Source: Sulfurospirillum sp. (lineage in GTDB: Bacteria; Campylobacterota; Campylobacteria; Campylobacterales; Sulfurospirillaceae). Taken from it: a stretch of DNA of 64,000 nucleotides. This document shows, piece by piece, positions 33,662-55,514 of this stretch (position 1 is its first letter; each line of letters opens with the position of its first letter). The DNA is taken from assembly GCA_016744795.1 (NCBI GenBank), contig JADGDR010000007.1, forward strand, positions 62,001 through 126,000, written 5' to 3'. Made by a program: the position numbers and the translations under genes. The notes beneath the pieces were generated by a model. It was not told where the DNA came from, did no database searches, and saw only the letters and a list, made by a program, of their open reading frames with translations.

Positions 33662-33665
33662 TTAT

Positions 33666-35137: not shown

Positions 35138-35142
35138 TATTT

Positions 35143-35184
35143 ATCCTTTTTAAAAAGGATCTTTATTTTACAAAAGATCCTTTT
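35143..35184 (-). terminator. Terminator-like hairpin that overlaps an alternative RBS-blocking hairpin for exbB
   Basis: On the minus strand, AAAAGGATCTTT (35184-35173) pairs with AAAGATCCTTTT (35164-35153), followed by further U residues. This is a good Rho-independent terminator after the methyltransferase gene. The 3' arm region ATCCTTTTT (35160-35152) can instead pair with AAAAAGGAT (35151-35143), which holds the exbB RBS. The two folds exclude each other. It could be a simple terminator or an attenuator setting the ratio of receptor operon to exbBD-tonB. Confidence 0.65.
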
Positions 35185-35200
35185 AAGTAGCTAATAACTC

Positions 35201-36001
35201 TTATTTAGTCCAAGAAATAAGTGCCCAACGGTTGTCTCTTAAAGGAGGAGTTATTTTATTATCAATACACTTCATATAAAAAGCTTTAATTAATTTTTCC
35301 TCATCTTCAGAAGTACCATCTAAACTCCAAGAAATTGAGTCTATATATTCATCAACAGATGCAATATTTGAGCATTTATTATCTGTAGGAATTATAAATT
35401 CAACTTTAGCATGAATCCCTAATTGGTAAAGAACATTAATTAAATAAATATAATCTGGTTTAGGAACAATATCTCTTCCCATAACCTGAAGAATTTCTTC
35501 ATTCAAATAACTTTTACCAACTTTAAAGGTCAAATAAACAGCTTTTTTTGCATGTTTATCAAGCTTTATTAAAGCTGCTTTTATATCATCTACCTCTAAA
35601 CAACGTGAAGCTAATACAATGTCACATACAGGAACATTTTCCCATGTTCCTTCTATATCTTTTTGTATAGTCTCTATATTGTTTAAATTCAGTTCTTTTG
35701 CATTTTTTTCTAAAGCATCTAACATGTTTTCAGAAAAATCAAAAGCATATACTTTTTTTACTTTTGGAGCAAATCTTAAAGCAAAAGTTCCTGGTCCACA
35801 TCCAACATCAAGGATATCTTCCACTTCTTCTAACTTCACTTTTTCTTCTATAGTATCATTATAGGTTCCATTGTGAATTTTATTATTCATCTCTTTTGCT
35901 TTTTTATTCCAAGAGTCTTTATCTTTTGTCTTATGTGAAGATGCACGTTTTTGTATGCTATATAACTTACTAAAGTCAATTGCTTCAATGTTACTATACA
36001 T
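35201..36001 (-). CDS. Class I SAM-dependent methyltransferase in metal/metallophore uptake operon
   Basis: The 266-residue protein has the Rossmann methyltransferase motif I ILDVGCGPGTFALRFA (about 65-80), the acidic end of strand 2 in VYAFDFSENMLDAL, and CDIVLASRCLEVDD further on. The first 55 residues are charged and contain SSHKTKDKDSWNKKAKEMN, seen in related enzymes that I associate with FecCD-type transport clusters. There is no signal peptide, so it acts in the cytoplasm, possibly on the imported ligand. It follows the TonB-dependent receptor by 15 bases. The substrate is unknown; a role in modifying or releasing metal from an imported chelate is inference. Confidence 0.8.
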   Translation of the reverse strand: MYSNIEAIDFSKLYSIQKRASSHKTKDKDSWNKKAKEMNNKIHNGTYNDTIEEKVKLEEVEDILDVGCGPGTFALRFAPKVKKVYAFDFSENMLDALEKNAKELNLNNIETIQKDIEGTWENVPVCDIVLASRCLEVDDIKAALIKLDKHAKKAVYLTFKVGKSYLNEEILQVMGRDIVPKPDYIYLINVLYQLGIHAKVEFIIPTDNKCSNIASVDEYIDSISWSLDGTSEDEEKLIKAFYMKCIDNKITPPLRDNRWALISWTK

Positions 36002-36016
36002 ATTTATTACTCATTA

Positions 36017-37993
36017 TTAAAATGTATAACGTAAATTTGCATAGTAATTACGTCCAGCTTCTGGTTGTCCTTCTGTATAGTAATAGTACTCATCAGTTAT
36101 ATTATTAATACCAGCAGAAAACTCAAGGTTTTTAACCATTTCATAAGTAACTTTTAAATCAATCAATACAAACTCTTTTGTTGTTGGATTACTTACTTTA
36201 TTATCAACATAACGCTCACTCTCATATCTTACAGAAGGAATTACTTTCCATTTGCTTATAGGAGTATATTTTAGTCTTGCAGAAAAAGTATGCTCTGGAA
36301 TTCTAATTATATATTTTACAGCAGGATCAGCACTTTTTGTTAAATCAGAGTTCACATAACCATAAGCAATATTAGTACTAATTTTATCATTCCAATAAGA
36401 ATCAATAGAAATATCTACACCTTCATATTCAGCTTCTCCAATATTTTGACTTTGATCTTTGCCACTACTTAATTTAACTTCATCAATAAAATCTTTTGTT
36501 TTAGTAAAATAAAAAGCCGTTTTTATTAAATGCTGTTGATTAAACATATGTTCAAACCCAACTTCATAATTCATTGATACTTCTGCTTCTAATTCAGGAT
36601 TTGGAACAACTGAACCAAACCTTGTAGAATATCTCTTATCTAATGAAGGCATGTTAGTTCTTTTTCCTACTGAGCCATAAACCATTGTCTCATCACTATA
36701 TTGATAGTATAAAGCAGTTTGTGGAGATATTGCATCTGTACTATAGTTATCATATTCACCAATATTGCCCCCGTCTCTATATTCGGCTTTTAATACTTTA
36801 TTCTTATCATAAGAAGCACCTAAAACCCATTTTAATTTATTATTTACCTTCAAAGCGTACTCTAATCCTAAAGATTGAGTCATTCCTTCTACTTTAATAT
36901 CTTGCCCAACATTAAATGAAAAAAAGTTTTTATGATAATCATTTTTTTGCATCATAGAAATTTTTAAACTTTGAGTATCATTGATTTTTAAATCTAATTC
37001 AACATTACCACCAATACTATGGTCATCATATTTTGAAGTCCATTTTTCTTTAACTAAATCAGTAGATTTATATTGAACTAATTTATTATAAAATTTATCG
37101 TAATAAAAACGAGTTTTTATTGTATGTTCGCCTAATGCTGTTTTTGAAATAAAATAGTAACTTGTTTTATCCCAATCTGGCCATCTCCATGTACGATTTC
37201 TAAATCTAAAGCTTGAACCTTCATTTCCATCTTCATAATCACTTGCATAAAAAGGATTACCTTTTTGGGCTCTTTGATTAATATAATTAAAAGAGTATTC
37301 ATCAGTATCATTAGGAGTAAAACCAATCTTCAAATTCAATTTTCTATCTTTTGAATCTGAATTTTCTCTTTTTCCGCCATCTTCCATTCCTGCTGATTGA
37401 AAATCTGAAGGTAATCTAAAATAGTCTCTTTGATAATTTGAAATTGATAACAATCCATAATATAAACCTTGATTAGTTCCAAGAGTTACATGCTCTTCAT
37501 GACCATTTCCACCAAATATGCCTGCACTAATTTGACCTTCAAATTCTTTAGTTGGCTTTTGTGTAATTATATTTACAGCACCACCAAGAGTATTTGCTCC
37601 AAACATTGGAGATACATAACCTTTAGAAACACTAATTTCTGATACATCATATGTTGTATATCTGCTTAAATCTGTTCCTTTATCATATGGGGTATACACA
37701 GGTATACCATCAATAAATATTGGTATATGACTACTTTCAAATCCACGAATACGAATATCTGTTTCATTTTTTCTGCCGACTTTTTGAACTGAAATTCCTG
37801 GTAAACTTGTTAAGGCTTCAACAATATTTTTACTGTTTGTGTCCTCAATAACTTCTCTATCAACTGTTTGTGTAGTTTGATTTTGACTAATATCTGCCTT
37901 ATCAATTACCTCTATTCTTCCTAAATCATAAACTGATTCACCCGCGTACAATCCTGTAGCTAAAACTAAACTTCCTAAAAGCATTTGTTTCAT
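36017..37993 (-). CDS. TonB-dependent outer-membrane receptor
   Basis: The 658-residue protein has signal peptide MKQMLLGSLVLATGLYAGES, then a plug domain (about 40-150: NIVEALTSLPGISVQKVG, ETDIRIRGFESSHIPIFIDG, GANTLGGAVNIIT), then a 22-strand barrel ending in the outer-membrane signature YYANLRYTF. A likely TonB box lies near the N-terminus (IEVIDKAD). It resembles receptors for siderophores, cobalamin or nickel chelates of the BtuB/CirA type; the ligand cannot be read. Context (FecCD permease, ATPase and binding protein immediately upstream, TonB system downstream) makes this a complete uptake path. Confidence 0.92.
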   Translation of the reverse strand: MKQMLLGSLVLATGLYAGESVYDLGRIEVIDKADISQNQTTQTVDREVIEDTNSKNIVEALTSLPGISVQKVGRKNETDIRIRGFESSHIPIFIDGIPVYTPYDKGTDLSRYTTYDVSEISVSKGYVSPMFGANTLGGAVNIITQKPTKEFEGQISAGIFGGNGHEEHVTLGTNQGLYYGLLSISNYQRDYFRLPSDFQSAGMEDGGKRENSDSKDRKLNLKIGFTPNDTDEYSFNYINQRAQKGNPFYASDYEDGNEGSSFRFRNRTWRWPDWDKTSYYFISKTALGEHTIKTRFYYDKFYNKLVQYKSTDLVKEKWTSKYDDHSIGGNVELDLKINDTQSLKISMMQKNDYHKNFFSFNVGQDIKVEGMTQSLGLEYALKVNNKLKWVLGASYDKNKVLKAEYRDGGNIGEYDNYSTDAISPQTALYYQYSDETMVYGSVGKRTNMPSLDKRYSTRFGSVVPNPELEAEVSMNYEVGFEHMFNQQHLIKTAFYFTKTKDFIDEVKLSSGKDQSQNIGEAEYEGVDISIDSYWNDKISTNIAYGYVNSDLTKSADPAVKYIIRIPEHTFSARLKYTPISKWKVIPSVRYESERYVDNKVSNPTTKEFVLIDLKVTYEMVKNLEFSAGINNITDEYYYYTEGQPEAGRNYYANLRYTF

Positions 37994-39019
37994 CTATTCT
38001 CCTCTAATTAATTTTTTAACGTCTTTACTGCTTAAATCTATGTGTAAAAATAACTTATAAAATGATTTTATTTCTTCTTCTATATTAATTTTAAAATGTT
38101 CAGGATATAAAATATGGTGCATCCAAACTATTCCTAAAATTCTCATCAAAGAAGGTGGGCGACTTACCCAATTAAAAGGAGAAATTGGCGAAAAATATAT
38201 TTGTTTATTTCTAAAAGCTTTTAGCTTTCTCCAAGAACTGTTTTTATTGAGTGTTTCAAAAAAAGCTTTATTTGATACAAATATAACATCAGGGTCATAT
38301 ATGTACAGTTTTTCTAAGCTAATCTTACTTTTTTTAGTACTTCCTTTAAATGAAGCATCACACTGATAGACATTAATTCCTCCTACTAATGGAATTATTT
38401 GTGATTGCATATTTCCACTACATTCAGATGTTAATCCATCAACACCTTGTGCAAAATAGACACTTTTTTTCTGTTTTTTTTCCAACGATATAACGCTATT
38501 TTTAACTCTTTGAAGGTTATTTTGAGCATAATCAATAAGTTTTTTAGCACGTTTTTCTTTTTTTAAAAATATTCCCATAACATGAAGTGCTTCTTTAGTC
38601 TCTTCTATTGTACTTTGCCCTATATATGCAACAGGAATTTTAAAATGACCAAGTGTCTCTTCAAAATATTTTCCATTTTTACGAACTATGTCCCACATAA
38701 AAATCATATCTGGCTTTAAAGCAATAACTTTTTCTAAGTTAGCTTGATTCCCAGCACTGTAAAAACTTCCTAAAACAGGAAGATTACTTACCTTTGGCAA
38801 CATATACTTTTTTTCTTCTTCAAAAAATCTGTAATTTACTCCAATCATCTTTTCAGGAGCTAATGCATATAACAAAGCTGTCATAGGAGGTGAAGCTGAA
38901 AAAACTTTTTCTGTCTTTTGCGGTACTATTACCTCTCTTCCAACCATATCAATAGAGCTTTTAGCAAACAAAGCACTCTCAAATACTAAAACAGACAAAA
39001 CACTTATAAATATTTTCAC
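37994..39019 (-). CDS. ABC transporter periplasmic binding protein (FecB/BtuF/NiuB-like)
   Basis: The 341-residue protein has signal peptide MKIFISVLSVLVFESALFA. The two-lobed helical-backbone fold is suggested by DMVGREVIVPQKTEKVF at the start, LKPDMIFMWD in the first lobe and DPDVIFVSN in the second. Two Cys (SEC and YQC, about 20 residues apart) could form a disulfide. The late segment PFNWVSRPPSLMRILGI and the YPEHFKINIEEEIKSFYKLF tail resemble binding proteins I associate with nickel/cobalt uptake in Helicobacter (NiuB type), but siderophore binding is equally possible. It overlaps the ATPase gene by one base and abuts the receptor gene. Confidence 0.85.
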   Translation of the reverse strand: MKIFISVLSVLVFESALFAKSSIDMVGREVIVPQKTEKVFSASPPMTALLYALAPEKMIGVNYRFFEEEKKYMLPKVSNLPVLGSFYSAGNQANLEKVIALKPDMIFMWDIVRKNGKYFEETLGHFKIPVAYIGQSTIEETKEALHVMGIFLKKEKRAKKLIDYAQNNLQRVKNSVISLEKKQKKSVYFAQGVDGLTSECSGNMQSQIIPLVGGINVYQCDASFKGSTKKSKISLEKLYIYDPDVIFVSNKAFFETLNKNSSWRKLKAFRNKQIYFSPISPFNWVSRPPSLMRILGIVWMHHILYPEHFKINIEEEIKSFYKLFLHIDLSSKDVKKLIRGE

Positions 39020-39798
39020 TAATTTTCCTTTTTTATAAATCCATATGACAACAAATGTGTCATACCTCTTTTGTGTGTAAATAATTCAGACTCAACTTGA
39101 TAAACTTTTCTAATGTTTTCAGGACTTACAACTACATTTGGTTCTCCAAATGACAAAATATTACGCTTATGTATCCATACAACTTTTTGAGATACTCTCA
39201 AAGCATGATTAGGATTATGTGTAGTTTGAACAATTGTATGTCCTAAAAAAGTGAGTTCTTCCATTAAGTCTAAAAGCCGTATTTGATTTCCAAGGTCAAG
39301 ACCAGTAACAGGTTCATCCATTATTATGAGTTCACTTTGTTGTGCCAACGCCCTTGCAATAAGTACTAATTGTCTTTGTCCACCACTTAAGTATCGATAA
39401 ATTTTCTCAGAAAAAGATTCTATACCAACTTGTGACAATGCTTTAAAAGCAATATTTCTATCGTTTGCACTGTAACTTAACCCAAATGACGAAGCATGAA
39501 ATCGTCCCATTAAAACAACTTCTAATACGTTAAATTCAAAAGGAATTACAGTACTTTGAGGAACATAGGAAATTAAACTAGCACGTTTTTTAGTAGTAAG
39601 TTTTTTTGATTCAACCCCATCCAACAACAAAGTACCAGCATAAGGAAGAAGTCCAACAATTGCCTTTAGTAAAGTACTTTTACCACTTCCATTTGCACCC
39701 AATATTGAAAGTATTTCACCTTTTTTGACGTTAAATGTTATATTTTCTATAATATTTTTTTTACCGTAGTTACATGAAATATTTTCTAATTTAAGCAT
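39019..39798 (-). CDS. ABC transporter ATP-binding protein (FecE/BtuD type)
   Basis: The 259-residue ATPase powers the FecCD-type permease. Walker A is LGANGSGKSTLLKA (about 34-47), the Q-loop is SYVPQST, the signature is LSGGQRQLVLIARAL, Walker B is LIIMDEPVTGLD and the H-loop is VQTTHNP. This motif set is typical of metal-chelate importers (FecE, BtuD, FhuC). It lies 11 bases after the permease gene and overlaps the binding-protein gene by one base. Confidence 0.94.
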   Translation of the reverse strand: MLKLENISCNYGKKNIIENITFNVKKGEILSILGANGSGKSTLLKAIVGLLPYAGTLLLDGVESKKLTTKKRASLISYVPQSTVIPFEFNVLEVVLMGRFHASSFGLSYSANDRNIAFKALSQVGIESFSEKIYRYLSGGQRQLVLIARALAQQSELIIMDEPVTGLDLGNQIRLLDLMEELTFLGHTIVQTTHNPNHALRVSQKVVWIHKRNILSFGEPNVVVSPENIRKVYQVESELFTHKRGMTHLLSYGFIKKEN

Positions 39799-39809
39799 AT
39801 TTGAACTCT

Positions 39810-40856
39810 CTACCTTTTCGCACTATGTCTTAATACAATTAAAAAAACTGGAATACCCACAAGTGAAGTTAATATGCCAAGTGGAATTTCTGTAGTGAAG
39901 AAACCTCTTGAAACTGTGTCAACTATAAGTAAAAAAGCTCCCCCTAAGAGAGCACTCATGGGAATTAAAAACGTATGATTAGCACCAACTAAAAAACGAG
40001 CTATATGAGGAATAACTAAACCAATCCAACCAATCATGCCTGCCATCATAACGCTTAATGCACTAAGAAAAGTTGCCAAGAATATCATTAGCAATCTTAT
40101 TTTCTTTACATCTAAACCTAAGGTTTTAGCATCTTCCTCTCCTAAGCTCATTAAATTCAAATGTTTTCCAAAGCTTATCAATATAAAAATACAAACTATT
40201 ATCCAAGGGGCAACAATAAGAATACTTTGAAGTTTTACACTAGAGAGTGAACCCATAAGCCAATAAACAATGGAAGGAAGTGTGCTGTATGGATCGGCAG
40301 TATATTTTACTAAAGAGAGCAAAGCACTAAAAAGAGAAGAACTTATAACACCACCAAGAACAAGCATTAACAGAGTATTACCTTGCCCATATAAGCGACT
40401 AATAAATAGTGCAAAGATTACAGCTAAAAAACCAAATATAAAAGCAGTACATTGTATAAAAAACAAAGACTGTTCTAAAAGCATGCCTAAGGCTGCACCA
40501 AAAGAAGCCCCTGCTAGAACACCTAATATACCAGGAGATACTAAGGGATTGACAAATATACCTTGAAAAACAACACCTGAAACAGATAAAGCCGCTCCTA
40601 TTAAAATTGAAGCTATAATTCTAGGCAAACGCATTTCTTGTAAAATAATTGTAGTAAATTTAGCTTTTTCTATAGTATCAGCATCTATATCAAAATTGAA
40701 CCAATAAAAAAGTACATCTCTATACTCATCTAAAGATACAGGATATTGTCCAATACAAAATGCATTTATAATACTTAATAAAAGTAATCCAAGTGCACTA
40801 AATAGATAAATTCGTTTTTTAATAAGCACTATATAAAGACCTTTATTAATATGCAT
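39810..40856 (-). CDS. FecCD-family ABC transporter permease
   Basis: The 348-residue inner-membrane protein has about 10 helices and the family signatures LRLPRIIASILIGAALSVSG, QGIFVNPLVSPGILGVLAGASFGAA (split here by a loop), and GMIGWIGLVIPHIARFLVGANH near the C-terminus. It should import an iron-siderophore, cobalamin or nickel/cobalt chelate with its ATPase. It is the first gene of the operon permease-ATPase-binding protein-receptor-methyltransferase. A 13-bp tandem repeat and a sigma-70-like promoter lie just upstream. Confidence 0.93.
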   Translation of the reverse strand: MHINKGLYIVLIKKRIYLFSALGLLLLSIINAFCIGQYPVSLDEYRDVLFYWFNFDIDADTIEKAKFTTIILQEMRLPRIIASILIGAALSVSGVVFQGIFVNPLVSPGILGVLAGASFGAALGMLLEQSLFFIQCTAFIFGFLAVIFALFISRLYGQGNTLLMLVLGGVISSSLFSALLSLVKYTADPYSTLPSIVYWLMGSLSSVKLQSILIVAPWIIVCIFILISFGKHLNLMSLGEEDAKTLGLDVKKIRLLMIFLATFLSALSVMMAGMIGWIGLVIPHIARFLVGANHTFLIPMSALLGGAFLLIVDTVSRGFFTTEIPLGILTSLVGIPVFLIVLRHSAKR

Positions 40857-40893
40857 TTATTGCATATTTCATATCATTAATATTAATTCTTAA

Positions 40894-40919
40894 GATAAAA
40901 TATTAAGATAAAATATTAA
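40894..40919. promoter_or_regulatory. 13-bp tandem repeat, putative operator of the uptake operon
   Basis: GATAAAATATTAA occurs twice head to tail without a gap (40894-40906 and 40907-40919). It lies between the probable promoter (40935-40963, minus strand) and the permease start at 40856, close to where transcription would begin. A repressor such as Fur or NikR could bind here; the match to either consensus is not convincing. Confidence 0.5.
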
Positions 40920-40934
40920 ATTAATTTAAAGTGA

Positions 40935-40963
40935 ATACTATCATATATAGTTACTCATGTCAA
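40935..40963 (-). promoter_or_regulatory. Sigma-70-like promoter of the uptake operon
   Basis: On the minus strand TTGACA (40963-40958) is followed after 17 bases by TAGTAT (40940-40935). Spacing and direction fit the permease-led operon. The promoter is just beyond the 3' end of the neighbouring gene at 40971. Confidence 0.5.
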
Positions 40964-40970
40964 GAGATTT

Positions 40971-41414
40971 TTATAAGAGTTTCTTATTTTCAGGATTTGA
41001 GAGAAGTGCTTCCATACTCCTTTTGATTCCTTTTGAGACTGGTTTTGGTCTCTCTTCCACATCGACACTAAGATTTATTAATATTGGTGTATCATCGACT
41101 ATTATTTGAAGTACTGAAAGAAGTGGAACACATACTAAAGAACCATAGTTCTCATGTCCAAAACCAGCTTCAAAACTTACTCCCCACTCATCTACAATAC
41201 AACTTTCAAAAGTATACCCTGCTAAAACAAACATTGTTATAGGCTTAAAAGTAGAGCTAATTTCTGAAGGAAGTTCTGGTTCAAAACTTATCTCAGATAT
41301 ATTAGTCAGTATTGAAAAATTTGTTCCTTTTTTTAAAAGAATCTCTAAAACACCCCTTACATGCCTTTTCATCTCTTTGCTAAAATTTGGATCATTTAAT
41401 ACATCTTGAAGCAT
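40971..41414 (-). CDS. Conserved hypothetical protein
   Basis: The protein has 147 residues with no signal peptide or membrane helix. It starts with a helical stretch (DPNFSKEMKRHVRGVLEILLKKG), followed by a beta-rich part (FVLAGYTFESCIVDEWGVSFEAGFG, LVCVPLLSVLQIIVDDTPILINLSVD). The ending (KGIKRSMEALLSNPENKKLL) is basic. I do not recognise a named family, but a gene of this size next to pepF is, as I recall, present in other Campylobacterota. It overlaps the pepF stop by one base, so it is translationally coupled to it. Function unknown. Confidence 0.7.
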   Translation of the reverse strand: MLQDVLNDPNFSKEMKRHVRGVLEILLKKGTNFSILTNISEISFEPELPSEISSTFKPITMFVLAGYTFESCIVDEWGVSFEAGFGHENYGSLVCVPLLSVLQIIVDDTPILINLSVDVEERPKPVSKGIKRSMEALLSNPENKKLL

Positions 41415-43126
41415 TACTTAAACTCCTTTAAAAGTTTTCTTATTTCATCAATTCCTATTTTCCAAAACTCTCTATCGTCTATATCGAAGCCAAACTTATC
41501 TATAAGCACTTTTGGGCTTTTACTTCCACCGGCACTCAAAAATGCAGTATAAATCTCTATAAAGTTTTCGCACTTTCCACTCTTGTAAAGCCCATAAAGA
41601 GCAAGAACTAAAAGCTGCCCATACGAGTAAGAGTAGCAGTAAAATGGAGAGTGTATAAAGTGTGGAATATAACTCCACCACATTTCATAACTTTTTCCTA
41701 ATGTTATGCTATCACCAAACATTTTTTTACTTTCTTCAAGCCAATACTTGTTAAAAGTAGCTAAATCAAGTTCCCCATCATGCCCATGAACACGTCTCTC
41801 AAAAGTAGTAAAGTTTATTTGTCTATACAGAGTTGCAAAAATATCTTCTATTTTTCCCGCATATAAAGACATTTTTTCATCTTCATTCAATCCATCTTTT
41901 ATATAATCAAACACAAGCATTTCAGCAAAAACTGAAGCAGTTTCAGAAGTAGTTAGTGGAGTGTCAGAAGCTATATAACCAACATCACGAGAAAGATACT
42001 GGTGAATAGCATGTCCAAGTTCATGTGCTAAAGTAAATAAATCTCTTCTTCTATTTGTATGATTTAAAAGAACATAAGGATGGGTATCAGGAGTTGCAGG
42101 ATGTGAAAATGCCCCTCCTCTTTTACCATCATATGGCATAACATCTATCCAACCCTCATCAAAAGCTTTTTTTGCAATGCAAGCAAACTTTGGACTAAAT
42201 TTTTCAAATGCTTTTAAAACTATTGTCTTTGATTTTTCAAAACTATAAACTTCTTCTGTAGTCTCAATCGGAGCATATCTATCATAATCATGAAGCTGAT
42301 CAAGTCCTAAGAGTTTTGCTTTTTTAACATAATAATCTTGAACCAAATCAAAACTCTCTTCAGCCGCATCTACCAAAGCATCAACGCTAGTTTGACTTAT
42401 CTTATTATCCATATGGCGAGATTGTTCAGGTGAGCTATAGTTTCTTAGTTCACAATCACTTTTATTATCTGTTTTTATCATATTGTAAATATATCCAAGA
42501 AGTGGTTGGTGAGGTTTAAGCCCTTTACTAAAAGCCATAGAAGCTTTCTTCCTTACCTCTCTATCAGGATTATGTAAAAGTGAAAGTATTTCCTCTTCAG
42601 AAATCTTTTTGCCTTCGTAAGCAAACTTTAGTCTGCTAAAATGCTCATCAAATAATCTACTAAAAGCACTTCCACCTGTTGTACTCTTTTTAAGAAGAAT
42701 TCTCTCTTCTTTTGCTGTTAATTGGTATGGTTTTTCTTCTTGAAGTGATTGAAGATAAAAAGTATATCCATTAGAATTGTCTATAAACTCTTTTTGTTTA
42801 GGTTTACCAAGACGATTAAATTCTAATTCAAAAAAGAGTAAAAATTCACTTACATTTGCATACTCATTTTGATATTTTGCATAAAGTGGACCATTGTCGC
42901 TATTAGTTGCAAACTTTAAAAAAGCATATGTCATTATTTTACCCAGTATTTGAGAGATAATCTCGTACTCTCTAATAGCTTCTAAAAACTCACTAGGATT
43001 AAGGTTTTTAAGCCCATTCTTGTACATCTTTTCAAAATTCTGTGCTTTTATTTTTGCTTTATCTAAATCTATATCTAATTCATCATCACTTTTATATAGT
43101 GCGTTCAAGTCCCAATTCAAATTCAA
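41414..43126 (-). CDS. pepF: Oligoendopeptidase F (M3 family metallopeptidase)
   Basis: The 570-residue cytosolic zinc peptidase should degrade short peptides. The active site HELGH lies in FTLAHELGHAIHQYLSRD near residue 360, with the downstream zinc ligand Glu in SETASVFAEML. The segment HSPFYCYSYSYGQLLVLALYG is typical of PepF rather than thimet oligopeptidase. The start ATG at 43126 lies inside the 3' end of pabC (35-base overlap). It is followed by a coupled gene of unknown function. There is no sign of export. Confidence 0.94.
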   Translation of the reverse strand: MNLNWDLNALYKSDDELDIDLDKAKIKAQNFEKMYKNGLKNLNPSEFLEAIREYEIISQILGKIMTYAFLKFATNSDNGPLYAKYQNEYANVSEFLLFFELEFNRLGKPKQKEFIDNSNGYTFYLQSLQEEKPYQLTAKEERILLKKSTTGGSAFSRLFDEHFSRLKFAYEGKKISEEEILSLLHNPDREVRKKASMAFSKGLKPHQPLLGYIYNMIKTDNKSDCELRNYSSPEQSRHMDNKISQTSVDALVDAAEESFDLVQDYYVKKAKLLGLDQLHDYDRYAPIETTEEVYSFEKSKTIVLKAFEKFSPKFACIAKKAFDEGWIDVMPYDGKRGGAFSHPATPDTHPYVLLNHTNRRRDLFTLAHELGHAIHQYLSRDVGYIASDTPLTTSETASVFAEMLVFDYIKDGLNEDEKMSLYAGKIEDIFATLYRQINFTTFERRVHGHDGELDLATFNKYWLEESKKMFGDSITLGKSYEMWWSYIPHFIHSPFYCYSYSYGQLLVLALYGLYKSGKCENFIEIYTAFLSAGGSKSPKVLIDKFGFDIDDREFWKIGIDEIRKLLKEFK

Positions 43127-43679
43127 TCTCTGCCCTTATTACTTTAAAATCTATTAAGGCATTCATTATAGCAAAATTTTGAGCTTTTTTTAAATCTTCT
43201 ATTGTTAAATCTTCACACTTTAAAAAACCACGCTCTATTAATCTTGCCCTAGTAGTACCTTGTAAGAGTGGAGTTTTTGGAGTTAACCAAATACCGTCTA
43301 CTCTTATCGCTATATTAGCAATAGACGTGTCTGTTAAAAACCCGTCTTTAACGATTATTATCTCTGTTTCATCAACCTTTAAAGCATCAATTTCATCTCT
43401 ATTAGCATACTTATGTCTATATTCTATATCAGATTCAACAATTTTAAACTCTTTAAACTCTCGCTTCAAAAATTCTTTACATGTAAAGCCCTCTAAAGTC
43501 TTGGCATAATCAATTCTAAGCCTAAATTCACCTTTTTTCGGCAGATTAAGAATCTGTTTTTTTAACTCTAATTTATCAGTAAATCCAAAAAAACTTCTCG
43601 TATAATCAACTCTTTGCTGATGGTACTTTATATTTAAAAGTTTTCCATTTTCTACTTTTATAGTTTCAAAACATAACAT
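43092..43679 (-). CDS. pabC: Aminotransferase class IV, probable aminodeoxychorismate lyase
   Basis: The enzyme releases pyruvate from aminodeoxychorismate to give p-aminobenzoate for folate. At 195 residues it is a short class IV PLP enzyme. The probable Schiff-base Lys is in YRHKYANRDEID, the cofactor-phosphate region is DTSIANIAIRVDGIWLTPKT, and LLQGTTRARLIERG is the conserved late motif. pabB lies 2.7 kb away on the same strand, which supports the PABA role. A branched-chain or D-amino-acid aminotransferase cannot be excluded from sequence alone. A damaged second copy lies at 44229-44806. The palindrome at 43475-43488 encodes FTCK. Confidence 0.82.
   Translation of the reverse strand: MLCFETIKVENGKLLNIKYHQQRVDYTRSFFGFTDKLELKKQILNLPKKGEFRLRIDYAKTLEGFTCKEFLKREFKEFKIVESDIEYRHKYANRDEIDALKVDETEIIIVKDGFLTDTSIANIAIRVDGIWLTPKTPLLQGTTRARLIERGFLKCEDLTIEDLKKAQNFAIMNALIDFKVIRAEIEFELGLERTI
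43475..43488. repeat. Palindrome CTTTACATGTAAAG in pabC
   Basis: A perfect 14-bp palindrome, read as FTCKE. The same element is at 44567-44580 in the broken copy, where the following 10 bases are deleted. Confidence 0.9.
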
Positions 43680-43754
43680 TCTATAACTAACCTTTTTTAG
43701 TACTTTATAGTTTTATTACTACACTATTCCTCATGAAAGAAATATCAAAATAAT

Positions 43755-43991
43755 TTATATATGGGCATCTCTATGTTTTTTACCATTAAATGTGAAAATT
43801 AAATCAAGCCTTATTTTCTCACCACTATCTAAAATCAAAAATTCTTTGCAATTAAATACACACATTGTTTTAACAATACCTTTTGTGCTCTCTTTTTGCT
43901 CATTTTTTAAATAAACAATAGTTGAAGGAATTTTCCTTTGAATTGCTACTTCCAATTGGTCATAAAATTCACAAGATATTGGTTCGTACAT
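43755..43991 (-). CDS. Rho-binding antiterminator-like protein (Rof/YaeO family)
   Basis: The protein has 78 residues. The opening MYEPISCEFYDQLEVAIQRK matches the start of E. coli Rof (YxPInCDDYDnLElAcq), and CKEFLILDSGEKIRLDLI matches its later (E)YLVVE...LRLDKI part. Rof binds Rho and inhibits transcription termination; the homologue here may do the same. It lies between pabC and its broken duplicate, in a region that has been rearranged. The downstream 237 bases (43992-44228) hold no convincing gene; a tiny plus-strand ORF near 44068 looks like a remnant at most. Confidence 0.65.
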   Translation of the reverse strand: MYEPISCEFYDQLEVAIQRKIPSTIVYLKNEQKESTKGIVKTMCVFNCKEFLILDSGEKIRLDLIFTFNGKKHRDAHI

Positions 43992-44390
43992 TTAAACCTC
44001 TTTTTTTGCAATATTATAACAAATTCTAGTAAGTTACACTATTTTCTACAAAAAGTCATATGTTTATGAGTGATGAAAATGTTGATAGATTATGGAAAAT
44101 CATGTTAGAAGGATTTTAAAAATTTGGATATTCTTTAGTTTAAGATTGATACTGAATTTCTAACACTTACTATACTGTTAATGTGATTTGTATAGAACAC
44201 TTTAATTAAAAGTAAATACATGACCCTGTTATTCTCTGCCTATTACTTTAACGTTCATTAAAGCAAAATTTTGAGCTTTTTTTAAATCTTCTATTGTTAA
44301 ATCTTCACACTTTAAAAAACCACGCTCTATTAATCTTGCCCTAGTAGTACCTTGTAAGAGTGGAGTTTTTGGAGTTAACCAAATACCGTC

Positions 44391-44400
44391 TACATGTAAA
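44391..44400. repeat. Palindrome copy present only in the duplicated pabC
   Basis: The bases are TACATGTAAA. The matching place in the intact pabC (near 43292) reads TACTCTTATCG-type sequence, encoding IRV rather than LHV, while both flanks match almost perfectly. Confidence 0.85.
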
Positions 44401-44566
44401 CCTATATTAGCAATAGACGTGTCTGTTAAAAGCCCATCTTTGAGTATAATTATCTCTTTATCATCAACCTTTAAAGCATCAATTTCATCTCTATTAGCAT
44501 ACTTATGTCTATATTCTATATCAGATTCGACAATTATAAACTCTTTAAACTCTCGCTTCACAAATT

Positions 44567-44580
44567 CTTTACATGTAAAG
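44567..44580. repeat. Palindrome CTTTACATGTAAAG at the deletion point of the pabC duplicate
   Basis: The 14-base palindrome is kept, but the 10 bases following it in the intact copy are missing. The deletion removes one of two AAAG repeats. Confidence 0.9.
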
Positions 44581-44783
44581 TCTTGGCATAATCAATTCTA
44601 AGCCTAAATTCACCTTTTTGAGGCAGATTAAGAATCTGTTTTTTTAACTCAAATTTATCAGTAAATCCAAAAAAACTTCTCGTATAATCAACTCTTTGCT
44701 GATGGTACTTTATATTTAAAAGTTTTCCATTTTCTACTTTTATGGTTTCAAAACATATTTTTAATATATTATCCCCCTTTAAA

Positions 44784-45482
44784 CTAGCTATTTTTAACTT
44801 TTTCATATTTATTTTCTATACTATAGCCATCAGAAAACTTTGTTATAAATGAACCATTTTTATTAAAAAAAGCAATATTGTTATTAGAATATATTACAAG
44901 TATTCCCTCATAAATTTTATCTCCTTTTTTTGACTTTAATATTTTACAATTACTCCAAACTTTACCTTTCTCAACATAACACCCATCTTCTATAAATTTT
45001 TCTACAGATTTAGAAGAATAATATTCTCCTCCTTTCATCGAAAGTACTCCAAGTAATACACTAATGAATCCTACATTCATTAAGAAAAAAAATATAGAAG
45101 AAATTATGTATGAAAATATTCCTGTAATTCCTACTGCTTTAGTAAAGTCATTATTTTTACTATCTAAATAGCTTAGAACTTTTTTTAAAAATACTAATTT
45201 TATAGGATTATGAAATTTATTTTTTATTTTCAATATTTTTATGTAAATATAAATAACCAAAACGACTATCATTAATATCATTATGATGATCTTGAAATTT
45301 GAAGGATTTTGTAAAAAAATTATACATTTTAAAAATATTTCAATTAGTGAAACTGTAATATGAATAAGTAAATTATATGTACTTAAATATACTTCATAAG
45401 TACTAAGTTTAAATAAATCAGCATCTATTCCATAACCTTTTAAATAGCCTATATTAAAATAATAGCCGGATATATATCCCAA
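44784..45482 (-). CDS. Hypothetical membrane protein, apparently 5'-frameshifted
   Basis: The open frame gives 232 residues with about four predicted helices (near 35-55, 63-83, 118-140 and 142-160) and a polar C-terminal half (YVEKGKVWSNCKILKSKKGDKIYEGILVIYS). I do not recognise the family by name. There is no ATG; the frame opens at a TTG after GYISGYYF-type sequence that looks internal. Upstream, another frame from ATG 45592 encodes MTAMRRKMEFKNRNKEKNNNK...IDLLIK. Adding one A in the AAAA run at 45503-45506 would join the two. The gene is either broken, shifted by a sequencing error, or genuinely short. It overlaps the pabC duplicate by 23 bases. Confidence 0.55.
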   Translation of the reverse strand: MGYISGYYFNIGYLKGYGIDADLFKLSTYEVYLSTYNLLIHITVSLIEIFLKCIIFLQNPSNFKIIIMILMIVVLVIYIYIKILKIKNKFHNPIKLVFLKKVLSYLDSKNNDFTKAVGITGIFSYIISSIFFFLMNVGFISVLLGVLSMKGGEYYSSKSVEKFIEDGCYVEKGKVWSNCKILKSKKGDKIYEGILVIYSNNNIAFFNKNGSFITKFSDGYSIENKYEKVKNS

Positions 45483-45658
45483 TGGTGCAAAATAGCAAAA
45501 ACTTTTATTAGTAAATCAATAATTCTAATTTTATTATTATTTTTTTCTTTATTTCTATTTTTAAATTCCATTTTTCTTCGCATCGCAGTCATTCTTATTT
45601 TCCTATTTCCATGAATATATAAATTGTATTAAAGTATTAAATTGCTCATCACAATAAA

Positions 45659-46042
45659 CTATCTCTCACCTACATCAAATATAATCTGCTTCGTTACATG
45701 TAATAACTCTTCTATATTGTTTTTACATATCTCAAAAATAATCTCTGCATCTAAATCAAAATAGTGATGAGACAATATATCTCGAATGCCTTTAACTTGT
45801 TTCCATGGTATGGTGGGGTAGTTTTTTAAAAGTTTGTTTTGTGAAAGTTTATCTATGTTTTTAAACCCTTCACCAATAGCAATAAGTCTCATTGAAATGC
45901 TATCAAGTTTTTCTAAACCTTCATCATCTTTTAGAAAATCATCACAAGAAGTTATCTCTTTACATCTTCTTTTTATCAACTCTAATGAAAATTTCACATC
46001 TTCTAAGGTTGATGAAATCATCTTTTTATTATCACTAAGCAT
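45659..46042 (-). CDS. hepT: HepT-like HEPN toxin of HepT-MntA pair
   Basis: This is a 127-residue HEPN-domain protein (DUF86 type). The ribonuclease motif R-x4-H-x-Y is present as RDILSHHY within KQVKGIRDILSHHYFDLDAE, so it is likely active. In known pairs the MntA nucleotidyltransferase AMPylates the Tyr of this motif and so neutralises the toxin. It overlaps mntA by 8 bases, with mntA first, the usual order. The pair lies between pabB and the rearranged pabC region. One palindrome copy (45693-45704) reads as LLHVTKQ. Confidence 0.88.
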   Translation of the reverse strand: MLSDNKKMISSTLEDVKFSLELIKRRCKEITSCDDFLKDDEGLEKLDSISMRLIAIGEGFKNIDKLSQNKLLKNYPTIPWKQVKGIRDILSHHYFDLDAEIIFEICKNNIEELLHVTKQIIFDVGER

Positions 46043-46322
46043 AAATTAAATCTTTTTTTATCATATCTAGGAAAAATGGCTTTATATTTTTATGTTCTCT
46101 TATGATGTCTACTCTCATATGCAAATCTTCTTCTATCTGTTCTTTTACAGCAATCATATCAAACATGCTAGGTTTCATCTGTACAAATATATCTATATCG
46201 CTACTTTGTGTAGCTTCTTCTCTCGCATAGCTACCAAATATTCCTATTTTTTCAACAGCATATTTAGAACGAAACTCCGCAGAGTGTTCTTTAAGATAAT
46301 TCAATATTTCATTTTTTGTCAC
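46035..46322 (-). CDS. mntA: MntA-like nucleotidyltransferase antitoxin
   Basis: The 95-residue minimal nucleotidyltransferase has the active site GSYAREEATQSSDIDIFVQM, the GS-x10-DxD pattern with both Asp present. A third acidic residue is in MRVDIIRE. It should transfer AMP to HepT and detoxify it. The start MTKNEILNYLKEHSAEF fits the family. A 34-base gap separates it from pabB. Confidence 0.9.
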   Translation of the reverse strand: MTKNEILNYLKEHSAEFRSKYAVEKIGIFGSYAREEATQSSDIDIFVQMKPSMFDMIAVKEQIEEDLHMRVDIIREHKNIKPFFLDMIKKDLIYA

Positions 46323-46356
46323 GATAAACTCCTAAAATATTTTTATTATTATAACA

Positions 46357-47292
46357 TTATACATAAACCTTATCTTTCATCTCTTCGTACTCACTTAAGG
46401 CATCACTCTCTATGGTAATCCCTCCTCCGCTTTTAAAAACGTAAGCATCTTCTGTTTTTTCTATAAAACGTATCATTACAGCACTATCAAAACTTTTTCC
46501 GTCGTAGTAGCCAAAAATGCCTGTGAAGAAACCTCTTTCGTAGTTTTCAATTTCTTTTATAATCTCTACTGTTTTTTTCTTTGGTGTTCCTGTAATTGAG
46601 CCTGCTGGGAGCATTGAGAAAATTAAGTCGCCTAATTTTTCATGCCAATTATCTTGTAAATCTGCTGTTATTTTTGAGCTGACTTGGAGTAGTTCTTTTT
46701 TTCCCGCATTTATCGAATCAATATATCTGAATTTTTCTACTTGAATATTCTTAGCTACTATGCCGAGGTCATTTCTAAGAAGATCCACCACCATAGTGTG
46801 TTCACTCATCTCTTTTTGATTTGCTAAGATTCTTTCCATTGCATGAGGTATACTTGCTTCAATAGTCCCTTTCATAGGATATGTACTTATCTGATTATCT
46901 TTTATTTGAACAAATCGTTCAGGAGAGAAACAGACAAATTTATTTTTTACATGTAGTTTAAAAGGAGCATTTGCACTATGAAAAATATCTTCTAAGTCTA
47001 TCTCACCTTCCAACTTCGTTTCAAATGTGAGATTGAGTAAATAGGTATTGCCTTTTTTTATCTCATTTTTGACTTTTTTAAGACCTTTTTTGTACTCATC
47101 AAAGCTTACATGTAAACGTTTTGTAATATTGGTTTTTTTCTTAGTTTTTTTCTTTATGTAGTTTCTAAAATTACCTAGTTGAAACTGGACATTTTCATCT
47201 TCTAAAATCCAGTTTTTCATCTCAAAATCAATGGCAAAAAAAATAGGTTTTCTTTTTTTACCGCACTCATTTAACCTCTCAATTAGCTCCAA
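46357..47292 (-). CDS. pabB: Aminodeoxychorismate synthase component I
   Basis: PabB converts chorismate with ammonia to aminodeoxychorismate, the precursor of PABA. The 311-residue protein is a compact chorismate-binding domain. It shows [28 protein letters not shown] (the metal-binding region), [18 protein letters not shown] and [17 protein letters not shown] at the C-terminus. The TIEAS version of the PxKGT motif and the size favour PabB over TrpE. It overlaps pyrB by 14 bases. pabC is 2.7 kb downstream on the same strand. Palindrome copies at 46946 and 47105 read as LHVKNK and RLHVSF. Confidence 0.9.
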
Positions 47293-48154
47293 TGAGCTTC
47301 TCCAGCACCGCCATCCTTACTGCAACTCCATTTTTGACTTGTTCGAGTACTTTGCATCTAGAATCTCTAAGCATTGCATCATCAATGTCCACATTTCTAT
47401 GAACTGGTCCAGGATGAAGTAAAAGTATGTTTTTATCTCCAACTAACTCTTGTGTTATACAAAAATCCGTTGCATAATCTTTTAGAGAACCATATATTTG
47501 GTTTTTATGACGTTCTGTTTGTGTTCTTAGGCTCATCACTATTTGAACCTCTTCAATTACTTCTTTAAGATTATGGCTAGTTTTTAACGTAGTTTCAGGT
47601 AAAAAATGAGGAGGCGCTACTAATGTAACATCAAGTCCATAACGTGTCAAAAGTTCAATATTCGAGTTTGCTACGCGTGAGTTTTTTATGTCTCCAACTA
47701 TTGCTATCTTTACGCCTTTTAGGTCTTTGAAGTATCTGGTCATTGTGAACAAATCTAAAAGTGCTTGAGTAGGGTGTGCATGAGGTCCATCTCCACCGTT
47801 TAAGATTGGACAATTTACATAATTTGAAAGCATATGAGGAACACCTGAATTTTTATGTCTGACAACTATGGCATCTGGTCCCATAGCATCAAGGTTTGCA
47901 GCTGTATCAAAAAGAGTTTCACCCTTACTTGATGAACTTTTTGAAACATCAAGACTAACCACATTTGCACCAAGTCTTTTTGCTGCTACTTCAAAGCTAC
48001 TTCTTGTTCTTGTTGAATTTTCAAAGAAAATTGTGATAATCATTTTATCTTTTAAAATCTCTCTTTGTTTTTCATCCAAAAATTCTTCAGCTCTTTTAAA
48101 AAGGGCGTTAACCTCATCTATTGAAAAGTCTCTAGTATTGATTAGGTGTTGCAA
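47279..48154 (-). CDS. pyrB: Aspartate carbamoyltransferase catalytic subunit
   Basis: PyrB condenses carbamoyl phosphate and aspartate in pyrimidine synthesis. The 291-residue protein has the carbamoyl-phosphate loop [20 protein letters not shown] (about 47-66), the SSSKGET loop, and [13 protein letters not shown]; the aspartate-side loop ends [14 protein letters not shown]. No regulatory PyrI gene is visible. It overlaps pabB and lies 19 bases after bioD, so pyrimidine, folate and biotin genes share an operon. Confidence 0.97.
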
Positions 48155-48173
48155 TGTTAATCCTCTTATGATA

Positions 48174-48812
48174 TTAAATAGATTTTAGCAAATTTTGACT
48201 TAATAATCTTATATCGTCTTGTAAATTAATGATTTTTTTATAGTATGGCAAAGTTGTAATTTCAAAACTCTCTTTGTTATCTCTAAAATTTACACACCAT
48301 TCATACTCTACATGTAAAGAATCTAACAAGTTAATATTGAGTAAAGTGTCATTTATGCAACCAAGATTAGCATGGCTAACTAAAAGAGTAACTGCATTAA
48401 ATTCTTTTATAAAATCATACATGTAAAGCTTTTCATCAACAGGAACCATGATTCCACCAGCACCCTCAATAAGTACTATGTCACTTACTTTTGCTATCTT
48501 TTCAAATGCCTCATGTATGGCTTTCATATCTATTTTTTCTTCACCTTTAGATACACAAGGAGCCGCGGGAAGTTCATATTGAATTGGCACAATATCTTTA
48601 CATGTAAAGCTTTTTAGATTTGAATTATACTTTTGTGCCGTTTCTAAAAGAAGCTTACCGTCCACAGGATACTCTACTACGCCAGTTTCTATAGGTTTAA
48701 AAACTCCTACATTTAAGCCTTGTCTGCTCAACTCTTTTATGAGTTTACATGTAGCGTATGTTTTTCCTACATCTGTGTTTGTTGCTGTTATAAAAACTGG
48801 TCTGTATTTCAT
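48174..48812 (-). CDS. bioD: Dethiobiotin synthetase
   Basis: BioD closes the ureido ring of dethiobiotin with CO2 and ATP. The 212-residue protein has the P-loop [27 protein letters not shown] with the catalytic Lys, and [13 protein letters not shown]. It overlaps the deaminase gene by 4 bases. Palindrome copies at 48306, 48418, 48596 and 48744 make it the second most motif-rich gene; they read as SLHVEY, LYMYD, FTCKD and ATCK. The other bio genes are not in the window. Confidence 0.95.
48596..48609. repeat. Palindrome CTTTACATGTAAAG in bioD
   Basis: A perfect 14-bp palindrome, read as SFTCKD. Variants lie nearby at 48306, 48418 and 48744. Confidence 0.9.
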
Positions 48813-49771
48813 GAAATTTTTCCTTCTAAAAAAGAAGCATCAAATGAATTTTGAATAAGCTTTTTTAATTCATCTTCATTCATATTTAAATCTTTTACTA
48901 AGGCTTCATAATTTTCATTTAAATAACCCCCAAAATATGCTGGGTCATCAGAGTTTACCATTACATGTAAACCTTTTTTTAATAGCTTTAATATATTATG
49001 ATTTTTCATACTCTTCACTGCTTTTAGTTTTGTATTTGATAAAGGACAGACCGTTAAAGGGATTTTGTTTTGTTTAAGATACTCTAATAGTTTTTCATCT
49101 TCATCACATCTTATACCATGGTCTATTCTGTCTACATGTAAAAGATTTATTGCTTCCCAAATGTAACTCGCATCTCCCTCTTCTCCTGCATGAGCTACTA
49201 GTTTATAACTTTGTTTTTTTGCCTCTTCAAAAACTTCTTTAAACTTAGATGGAGGGTTTCCTAGTTCACTTGAATCTAAACCTACGGCTATTATTTTATT
49301 TTTAAAAGGTTCAGCTTCTTTTAGAGTTTCAAATGCCTCTTTTTGACTTAGGTGTCTTAAAAAACTCATGATTAAAAATGAACTTATTTCTAATTCATTT
49401 TTTGCTTTTTCTAATGCCCTACTAATACCATTAATAACAGTTTCAAACTTTACTCCTCTACTCGTGTGAGTTTGAGGATCAAACATTATCTCTGTATGAA
49501 CTATATTTTGTTCTTTACATGTAAGCAAATATTCCCAAGTTAACTCAAAAAAATCTTGCTCTTTTATGAGTACAGTTGCTCCTGCATAATAGATATCTAA
49601 AAAAGACTGCAAAGAGTTAAAATTATAAGCTTCTTTTACTTCAGCTACGGTTTTAAAGGGTATCTTGATTTTGTTTTTTTTAGCCAATCTAAACATAAGT
49701 TTAGGTTCTAAAGTACCTTCAATATGTAAATGGAGTTCTGCTTTTGGTAGTTTTTGGATTAAATTTTTCAT
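48809..49771 (-). CDS. Adenine/adenosine deaminase family protein
   Basis: The 320-residue metal-dependent deaminase has the first zinc ligands in [13 protein letters not shown], the next in [11 protein letters not shown] with the catalytic Glu, then [18 protein letters not shown] and [15 protein letters not shown] with the metal-binding Asp pair. The DPAYFGGY...N ending is characteristic of the adenine deaminase branch, so hypoxanthine production from adenine is the likelier reaction; adenosine as substrate is the alternative. It overlaps bioD by 4 bases. Palindrome copies at 48960, 49132 and 49513 read as GLHVMV, LLHVDR and LLTCKE. Confidence 0.85.
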
Positions 49772-49836
49772 AAAATTATTATAGCAAAATTTATATTTTC
49801 TATATAAGAGTACTTTTAGGAATACAAAACTTATGC

Positions 49837-49842
49837 TATAAT
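49837..49842 (+). promoter_or_regulatory. Extended -10 promoter of the NhaC-type gene
   Basis: TGCTATAAT (49834-49842) is an extended -10 element. The start codon lies 27 bases downstream, preceded by AGGAGG. Confidence 0.6.
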
Positions 49843-49868
49843 TTACAGTTAATTTTTAGGAGGATTTT

Positions 49869-51569
49869 TTGAATAGTAGATTTAAATTAATTTTTGCATT
49901 ACTTTTTTTACCATTAGTACTTTTTGCTGATGCCAAAAGCAATGCTGAGACATACGGCATATTAACGTTGATTCCACCTTTTGTGGCAATAGCTTTAGCA
50001 TTTATAACAAAAAACGTTATTTTTTCACTATTTATGGGTATTTTTAGTGGAACATTTCTTATAAATATATCTGGAAACAATATATTTGCTGCGTTATACA
50101 GTGCTTTTATAGACCTTGTAAGCAAAATGGTAGGAAGCATGGCAGATTCTTGGAATGCAGGAATTATACTTCAGGTACTAACTATTGGTGGACTTATAGC
50201 AGTCATCACCAAGATGGGTGGACCACGTGCTATCGCTGAAAAACTAGCTAAAAAAGCAAAAACTCAGCGTTCAGCTCAAATATACACTTGGGTTATGGGA
50301 TTTTTTATCTTTTTTGATGATTATGCAAACTCACTTATCATTGGTCCTATTATGAGACCAGTTACAGATAAACTTAAAGTTAGTCGTGAGAAACTTGCTT
50401 TCATCATAGATGCAACTGCAGCTCCTGTTGCAGGAATTGCACTAATTTCAACGTGGATTGGTTATGAGATTTCACTTATAAAAGACGCTTATGCAATGAT
50501 AGGACAAGTTGACGTAAATGCATATGCTATCTTTGTTGAAACCATACCTTATAGATTTTACAATATTTTAATGTTAGCTTTTGTATTTTTTACAGCGTAC
50601 TTTTTACGTGAGTTTGGTCCTATGCACAAAGCAGCAAGTAGAGCAATTTCAACTGGTCAAGTTTATCATCCAGATGCAAATGTTATGATGAACCAAGAGA
50701 GTGCAACCCTCGAGCCTAAAGATAATCTTCAACACTCTATTTGGAATGCAATCATACCCATAGCAACTCTAATTGCAGTGGCATTTTTTGGATTTTATTT
50801 TAATGGATATCACGCTCTTGATGAAGCAGCAATGAAAATTGTTGATGCTAATCCATATGCTTTTTCATCAATCAGAGACTGCTTTGGTGGAGCTGATGCT
50901 TCTATTGTTCTTTTTGAAGCAGCTCTTTTTGCTTCAATTGTAGCAATTGGAATGGGTATGCAACAAAAAATGTTCAACCTTAGTGAAGCTTTGGAAACTT
51001 GGGTTCTTGGTGTAAAAGCCTTAGTTATTACAGGTGTTATTCTTATACTTGCTTGGTCTATCAGTGCTGTTATAAAAGAGCTTGGAACATCTACTTACTT
51101 AGTTTCAATTTTAACAGATGCAACTCCACAGATACTTTTACCTTCTATTATATTTATACTAGGTTCAATCATCTCTTTTGCAACTGGAACATCTTATGGA
51201 ACAATGGGAATCTTAATGCCTTTAGCAATTCCAATTGCAAATGCGGTAGGAATTCATACAGGACTTGAAGGCACTGAACTTCAAAACTATATTGTTCTAA
51301 ATATAAGTTCTGTTTTAACTGGTGCTATATTTGGTGATCATTGTTCCCCTATATCTGATACTTCCATACTCTCTTCCATGGGAGCATCTTGTGACCATAT
51401 GGATCACATTAAAACTCAGCTTTTCTATGCTCTGTTTGTAGGTATGGTAGCAATTATATTTGGTTATATACCAGCAGCTATGGGATTTTCTATGTATGTA
51501 GTTCTTCCTCTTGCACTTCTTGTTGTTGCTTTAACTGTAAGATTTTACGGTAAAAAAGTAGTAGCATAA
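49869..51569 (+). CDS. nhaC: NhaC family Na+/H+ antiporter
   Basis: The 566-residue membrane protein has about 11-12 helices. Translation starts at TTG 49869, supported by AGGAGG at 49859-49864. Family features are GGPRAIAEKLAKKAKT, the FIFFDDYANSLIIGPIMRPVTDK segment with the charged pair used by this family, and FGDHCSPISDTSILSSMGASCDH near the C-terminus. It should exchange Na+ for H+; similar proteins can instead carry malate/lactate or amino acids, so the substrate is inferred. It is transcribed alone and ends at a hairpin (51574-51600). Confidence 0.87.
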   Translation: MNSRFKLIFALLFLPLVLFADAKSNAETYGILTLIPPFVAIALAFITKNVIFSLFMGIFSGTFLINISGNNIFAALYSAFIDLVSKMVGSMADSWNAGIILQVLTIGGLIAVITKMGGPRAIAEKLAKKAKTQRSAQIYTWVMGFFIFFDDYANSLIIGPIMRPVTDKLKVSREKLAFIIDATAAPVAGIALISTWIGYEISLIKDAYAMIGQVDVNAYAIFVETIPYRFYNILMLAFVFFTAYFLREFGPMHKAASRAISTGQVYHPDANVMMNQESATLEPKDNLQHSIWNAIIPIATLIAVAFFGFYFNGYHALDEAAMKIVDANPYAFSSIRDCFGGADASIVLFEAALFASIVAIGMGMQQKMFNLSEALETWVLGVKALVITGVILILAWSISAVIKELGTSTYLVSILTDATPQILLPSIIFILGSIISFATGTSYGTMGILMPLAIPIANAVGIHTGLEGTELQNYIVLNISSVLTGAIFGDHCSPISDTSILSSMGASCDHMDHIKTQLFYALFVGMVAIIFGYIPAAMGFSMYVVLPLALLVVALTVRFYGKKVVA

Positions 51570-51573
51570 TCTC

Positions 51574-51600
51574 AAAGGAGGCAAATAAATTGCCTCCTTT
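51574..51600. terminator. Hairpin terminator between the nhaC gene and the XRE gene
   Basis: AAAGGAGGCAA (51574-51584), loop ATAAA, then TTGCCTCCTTT (51590-51600). The 11-bp perfect stem lies between convergent genes and can serve both. Confidence 0.85.
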
Positions 51601-51605
51601 ATAAC

Positions 51606-51857
51606 TTACTCCAAAAATCTATTTATATCTATTTTTAGTGACTTAGAAATTTTATATAAATGTTCTAAATTAAAACGTTTATTATATTTGTTATTCTCAC
51701 AATTTGAATAAAAAGCAACAGATTTTATGCCAATATCTAAGGCCAAATCAGATTGTGTTATATTTTTACTCTCTCTATAAAATCTTACTTTTTTTGAAAT
51801 ACTCTTATGGAAATATTTGATTTCCTCTTCATTTGAATTACTAAAATCATTTTTCAT
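51606..51857 (-). CDS. XRE-family helix-turn-helix regulator
   Basis: The 83-residue DNA-binding protein contains a single Cro/C1-type HTH (about 20-80): KKVRFYRESKNITQSDLALDIG and SVAFYSNCENNKYNKRFNLEHLYKISKSL. There is no effector domain. It is transcribed alone, convergent with nhaC, with its promoter in the 127-base gap before the MCP gene. The target is unknown. Nothing nearby (no toxin, no phage gene) suggests a mobile element. Confidence 0.8.
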   Translation of the reverse strand: MKNDFSNSNEEEIKYFHKSISKKVRFYRESKNITQSDLALDIGIKSVAFYSNCENNKYNKRFNLEHLYKISKSLKIDINRFLE

Positions 51858-51984
51858 CTTATTTATCCTATAGGATTAATTTAATTTTAAACCTTATGGT
51901 TATATAATTTTAAAATATTTTACCTAAAGAATAAATTTAATCTAAAATTCTATTTTTTTTTAAAGTAAACACAAAAGGATTGTT

Positions 51985-53676: not shown

Positions 53677-53680
53677 TTAT

Positions 53681-55508: not shown

Positions 55509-55514
55509 TAGTTC

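Follow-up and report, generated by a model that had tools for sequence, protein, structure and literature searches.

The window analysed here is a stretch of 64,000 nucleotides from the genome of a Sulfurospirillum sp. that has S. arcachonense as a near relative (source genome G000; G000:C29:62001-126000). It holds two copies of the gene pabC, one of which carries at a diverged site an 8-bp palindrome, TACATGTA, that is dispersed through this genome and through the family Sulfurospirillaceae. The intact pabC (43092..43679, minus strand) encodes an aminotransferase class IV of 195 aa and overlaps the start of pepF. Its duplicate spans about 44229-44806 on the same strand, shifted by 1,092 bp in register, and is a frameshifted pseudogene. 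The N-terminal open reading frame (ORF) of the duplicate (44558..44806, minus strand, 82 aa) loses the frame past a 10-bp deletion beside a copy of TTTACATGTAAA, and its C-terminal ORF (44229..44561, minus strand, 110 aa) carries the gained motif. The deleted bases, GAGGGCTTTA, lay between CTTTA repeats, the second of which is an arm of the TTTACATGTAAA copy (44558-44579). This TTTACATGTAAA copy is common to both pabC genes (43476..43487, with its duplicate counterpart at 44568-44579) and encodes FTCK. A 12-bp deletion is also found near the 3' end of the duplicate. The title of Robinson 1997, as cited in PMC4390886, reports that HIP1, a highly iterated palindrome (HIP) of cyanobacteria, promotes excision. 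The pseudogene lies in a segment of about 2.7 kb (43680..46345) that has no homologue at the same place in the sister species G002 or in G001. This segment has a G+C content of about 25% and contains, besides the pseudogene, a Rof-like ORF, an unknown 232-aa ORF and a HepT/MNT toxin-antitoxin pair. No match to Rfam was found within the window.

The two pabC copies differ by 24 substitutions (overall divergence ~5%), 14 of which fall within a tract of 67 bp (43302..43368, minus strand). At the motif site the intact gene reads CTACTCTTATCGCTAT on the plus strand (43298..43313, gene on the minus strand), encoding AIRVDG, and the duplicate reads CTACATGTAAACCTAT (44390..44405, minus strand), encoding GLHVDG, with TACATGTA at 44391-44398. 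The first-pass annotation had quoted both strings exactly, and had read them as a natural before/after pair in which the palindrome was gained or lost as a block. Its count of six changed bases held, the changes lying within eight adjacent positions (43302-43304 and 43307-43309) where the version in the duplicate makes the palindrome, and so did the protein change from IRVDG to LHVDG, which with the preceding residue runs from A-I-R-V-D-G to G-L-H-V-D-G. The change is also clustered beyond neutral point mutation, as had been argued (6 substitutions in 9 bp, permutation p = 1e-4). The matching flanks that it described were found on one side only. On the other side, 31-59 bp from the motif site and beyond an identical 30-bp core (43310-43339), there is a second cluster of eight substitutions unrelated to the motif (8 in 30 bp, p = 1.5e-4). 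The divergence between the copies is 20.9% in the 67-bp tract, 27.6% in the 29-bp sub-tract of the second cluster, and 1.4-2.7% elsewhere. A sub-tract divergence of 27.6% is at the between-species level, and the duplicate, otherwise near-identical to the intact gene, is a mosaic with two short diverged islands.

Polarity was determined by the orthologue alignment that the first-pass annotation had proposed, with G002 (loci L004 and L011) as the outgroup. G002 reads GCGATAAGAG, exactly the state of the intact copy, and the duplicate reads GGTTTACATG; the motif was therefore gained in the duplicate, and the duplicate as the ancestral state was ruled out because the outgroups match the intact copy. 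In the second cluster both copies have changed relative to G002, at four positions each, and each copy stands 20.7% from G002 in the 29-bp sub-tract. The intact copy has four derived changes in the tract vs. three in the remaining ~449 bp (p = 0.007). The pabC pair is not a clean before/after comparison, since the flanks hold a motif-independent cluster in which both copies have changed. Its differences are of the kind that gene conversion or micro-import leaves behind: they are clustered, they coalesce deeper than their surroundings, and both copies are affected. None of the genus-g4 genomes carries the motif at these pabC codons. In G004 (L005/L008) the motif stands at the same codons with different flanks, either as a parallel gain or as an old presence.

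The palindrome is dispersed over the window in 36 copies (260..63627) vs. 1.6 expected, and the whole genome contains 1,297 copies vs. 74 for the reversed word. These counts rule out chance occurrence of what the first-pass annotation had called the dispersed palindrome. Two long stretches of the window (29319-43477 and 49524-58779) are without any copy. Across 44 genomes of the family, TTACATGTAR was commoner than its backward control in nearly all, with 7 to 1,557 copies per strand; the poorest genome was G015 (7 vs. 4 for the control). The order-3 expectation calculated with motif copies masked was exceeded 33-73-fold, and across genomes and orders the motif reached 19-73 times the Markov expectation. 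Words with one mismatch stood at expectation (1.04-1.06 of the order-3 value). With its flanks the consensus is about CTTTACATGTAAAG, an A following the core in 94% of the G020 sites. Density is about 480-500 copies per Mb, and copies are on average about 2 kb apart. In G000, 364 of 456 copies are coding and 86 intergenic, so that about 80% lie in coding sequence and the intergenic share is above proportion. The coding copies are mostly in the L-H-V frame and next in the (F/S)-T-C frame, and motif gains are mostly replacements without length change. Three species inside a motif-rich genus are motif-poor, with 61 (G026), 263 (G034) and 198 (G039) copies vs. about 1,200, and these are natural losses of whatever maintains the palindrome. 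A separate array at G007:C10:16770-17608 holds 13 motif copies on one strand at ~69 bp spacing; perhaps this is a CRISPR (clustered regularly interspaced short palindromic repeats) array, or a tandem array of another type, whose repeat contains the palindrome.

Motif sites were compared between G020 and G021 (96.6% identical, 318 kb), between G000 and G001 (77.6%, 212 kb), and between G000 and G002, and the expected number of shared sites was computed from local flank identity. Sharing exceeded expectation in all three pairs: 155 of 164 sites vs. 131.6 in G020-G021, 57 of 112 vs. 19.5 in G000-G001, and 31 of 41 vs. 10.2 in G000-G002. Changes of one or two bases at motif sites were strongly suppressed (5 vs. 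29.6 in G020-G021, 29 vs. 63.2 in G000-G001), and changes of three or more bases were at background (4 vs. 2.9 and 26 vs. 29.2, respectively). A site conserved elsewhere (column 1968) has decayed by 1-2 bases in the low-motif genomes G026 and G034. These data demonstrate that TACATGTA is actively maintained across Sulfurospirillaceae. Some pressure acting on the exact sequence would hold the palindrome at about 500 copies per Mb, and the presumed agent may be linked to adenine methylation at the CATG core.

A gene for an adenine methyltransferase of the D12 class (about 320-346 aa) stands between a response-regulator gene and trmA in G000, adjoining the latter (L198:1495-2457; G000:C23:205771-206730); in the 3.8 kb read, no restriction enzyme gene was found near it. 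Full-length phage relatives (41% identity) are annotated as ulcer-associated adenine methyltransferase, which we take to be the name of M.HpyI of Helicobacter pylori. M.HpyI methylates CATG (PMC4450513), the sequence that forms the core of the palindrome. A methyltransferase of the CATG type is put forward as a candidate partner of the palindrome, with a specificity predicted from the annotation of relatives. In genus g4 the median motif density was 453 copies per Mb in genomes with the D12 gene vs. 95 in those without it (p = 0.002, uncorrected for kinship); genera g1 and g2 showed no relation between the gene and motif abundance. G001 and G030 are motif-rich yet lack the D12 gene, and genus g2 is motif-poor yet has it. 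In the G000 and G001 sequence analysed GATC occurs at 0.32-0.37 of expectation, which suggests past or present GATC restriction, and CATG outside the motif at 0.68-0.75. In Elhai's model of HIPs (PMC4390886), iterated palindromes are tied to methyltransferases whose target is a sequence inside the palindrome. The Sulfurospirillaceae case resembles this model without proving it.

We consider the chances about even that the motif in the pabC duplicate sits in a diverged-allele island produced by short-tract recombination, and that no block-writing mechanism is required. The patch is read in this way because of the mosaic pattern, the accessory 2.7 kb, the frameshift, and the short imports known in H. 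pylori, which average 28 bp (PMC4917963); mosaic imports with recipient interspersions are also documented (PMC2582958). The duplicate would have arrived with, or would stand in, an inserted segment, and the pair would differ in that small islands of the duplicate (about 10 and 29 bp, with 30 identical bases between) come from a diverged pabC lineage in which the motif was already present or was built up. The motif may then have reached the locus by micro-import, or as the unconverted remnant of incomplete gene conversion, and would be a passenger or part of the history of the diverged lineage. Island size and mosaic pattern are like those of the micro-imports of H. pylori, a member of the same phylum in which import is documented, whereas at pabC it is presumed. 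Several observations weigh against recombination of this kind. The 30 bp between the islands are identical in both copies, yet 23% from G002, a pattern that one import of 67 bp does not explain and that calls for either two events or an import with interspersions. Among the genus and family pabC genes compared there was no donor allele with the motif in its exact context, and conversion from a G004-like allele was ruled out by its different flanks. Some motif gains elsewhere, moreover, are multi-base with clean flanks.

Stepwise point mutation under a sequence-specific pressure is possible, though doubtful, as the source of the pabC motif. Here near-motif sequence would turn into the motif and then be protected, with several steps taken in a relaxed pseudogene; the pressure would be selection, or a bias of repair or methylation as proposed for HIP1. 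Graded series do exist at other sites: column 1309 runs through TTACAAGTAAG, TTACAGGTTAG, TTGCATGTCAG, TTACATGTCAG and TTACATGTAAG, column 2335 from TTGCATGTCAA to TTACATGTAAA, and G027 holds the intermediate GTGACATGTAAA. Five of nine ungapped state differences between G020 and G021, a pair whose differences are mostly unpolarised, are single-base changes, of the six gains specific to a lineage in G000/G002 three or four lie just 1-2 substitutions from a relative, and the decay at column 1968 took equally small steps. With an overall divergence of ~5%, six substitutions within 9 bp are nevertheless hard to obtain stepwise, and no pool of intermediates is visible since one-mismatch words are not enriched. 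Clean multi-base gains, in G025, between G020 and G021, and at a second pabC site of G002, also oppose it and instead favour motif-specific block writing, in which templated conversion or replacement would copy the palindrome as a unit of ~8-12 bp and leave the length unchanged. In addition to the six of eight bases changed in the pabC duplicate, pabC of G025 reads CTTACATGTAAGG where G022 has CTCTCGTGTGGCG and G023 has CTCTCTTGCGGCG (6 of 10 bp changed, surroundings nearly identical). G020 and G021 differ as GACGGCTA/TACATGTA, with four of six bases changed and a single further change in 50 bp, and at the second G002 pabC motif G000 is different at nearly every core base. Clean-flank changes of four or more bases were in excess, in small numbers (4 vs. 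0.5 in G000-G001, 1 vs. 0.03 in G020-G021). Among changed sites, those with three or more changes were likewise in excess (4 vs. 0.8, 26 vs. 16.7, and 8 vs. 3.7), but not in G000-G002 (1 vs. 2.2), and suppression of small changes alone would give such a conditional excess. We judge block writing unlikely. Multi-base changes at motif sites are, taken unconditionally, as frequent as in the background, and the focal site lies inside a wider divergent tract with unrelated changes in both copies, so that the pair does not show the motif itself being written as a block. Nor was there an obvious template: the best other match in G000 to the motif context of the duplicate was 18 bp in the 850 kb searched, about a third of the genome. 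Quasi-palindrome correction from the local right arm was ruled out, as the left flank seen is GGTTTACA and not CCGTCTACA. Other alleles differing by a motif copy, sought as the first-pass annotation had suggested, were of both kinds, clean multi-base gains (G025 against G022/G023, G020/G021) and graded point series (columns 1309 and 2335, G027). Graded series were the outcome that it had named as refuting, and they occur here at motif sites other than the pabC one; its block-gain reading is partly supported.

Block gain in its strongest form, which seems to us decidedly improbable, would be an active process by which Sulfurospirillaceae turn 8-12 bp of arbitrary sequence into CTTTACATGTAAAG in a single step, perhaps one coupled to mismatch repair and an adenine methyltransferase of the CATG type. 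If true, the palindrome would behave like a mobile sequence smaller than a gene that leaves no length footprint, and the rewriting would be seen in snapshots in the pabC duplicate and in pabC of G025. There is very little likelihood that the palindrome is a DNA uptake sequence (DUS), marking self DNA for natural transformation and accumulating by uptake bias, which would also explain recombined patches that carry it. Known uptake sequences have a density of the order of the 480 per Mb seen here, the motif occurs in both coding and intergenic DNA, and the pabC patch looks recombined. However, one-mismatch forms are at expectation, whereas for uptake sequences a graded enrichment of forms with mismatches has been described (PMC1939737), and the plasmids of S. 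diekertiae carry the motif at nearly chromosomal density. The palindrome is like the DUS and uptake signal sequences of Neisseria and Haemophilus in copy density, conserved positions and association with recombining genomes; unlike them it has no halo of one-mismatch forms and is a full palindrome.

The closest analogue is HIP1 (GCGATCGC), together with the alternate cyanobacterial HIPs (Elhai 2015, PMC4390886). Like HIP1, the motif is an 8-bp palindrome found roughly once per 1-2 kb, mostly in coding sequence, family-wide, with a fuller flank consensus and with losses in some lineages, and its CATG core is what a candidate adenine methyltransferase would target, in the way that CGATCG/GATC is targeted in HIP1. 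Unlike HIP1 it belongs to a different phylum (Campylobacterota), is A+T-rich with a CATG core, and has a partial methyltransferase link, given motif-rich G001 and G030 without the gene and motif-poor g2 with it. Genome-wide overrepresentation, occurrence in both coding and intergenic DNA, and gain without length change are HIP1-like properties. The palindrome works like HIP1 and is not the cyanobacterial element itself, because its host family is Sulfurospirillaceae, of the Campylobacterota. The larger finding is a HIP-like palindrome of Sulfurospirillaceae, and in the literature searched we found TACATGTA nowhere described as an iterated palindrome. It bears on the wider question of how highly iterated palindromes such as HIP1 originate and persist, and provides an independent second case that spans a family and comes with genome pairs of 78 to 97% identity, the low-motif lineages G026, G034 and G039, and a gain within a pseudogene. 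With such pairs, losses and a pseudogene gain, stepwise vs. block gain and maintenance by a methyltransferase become testable.

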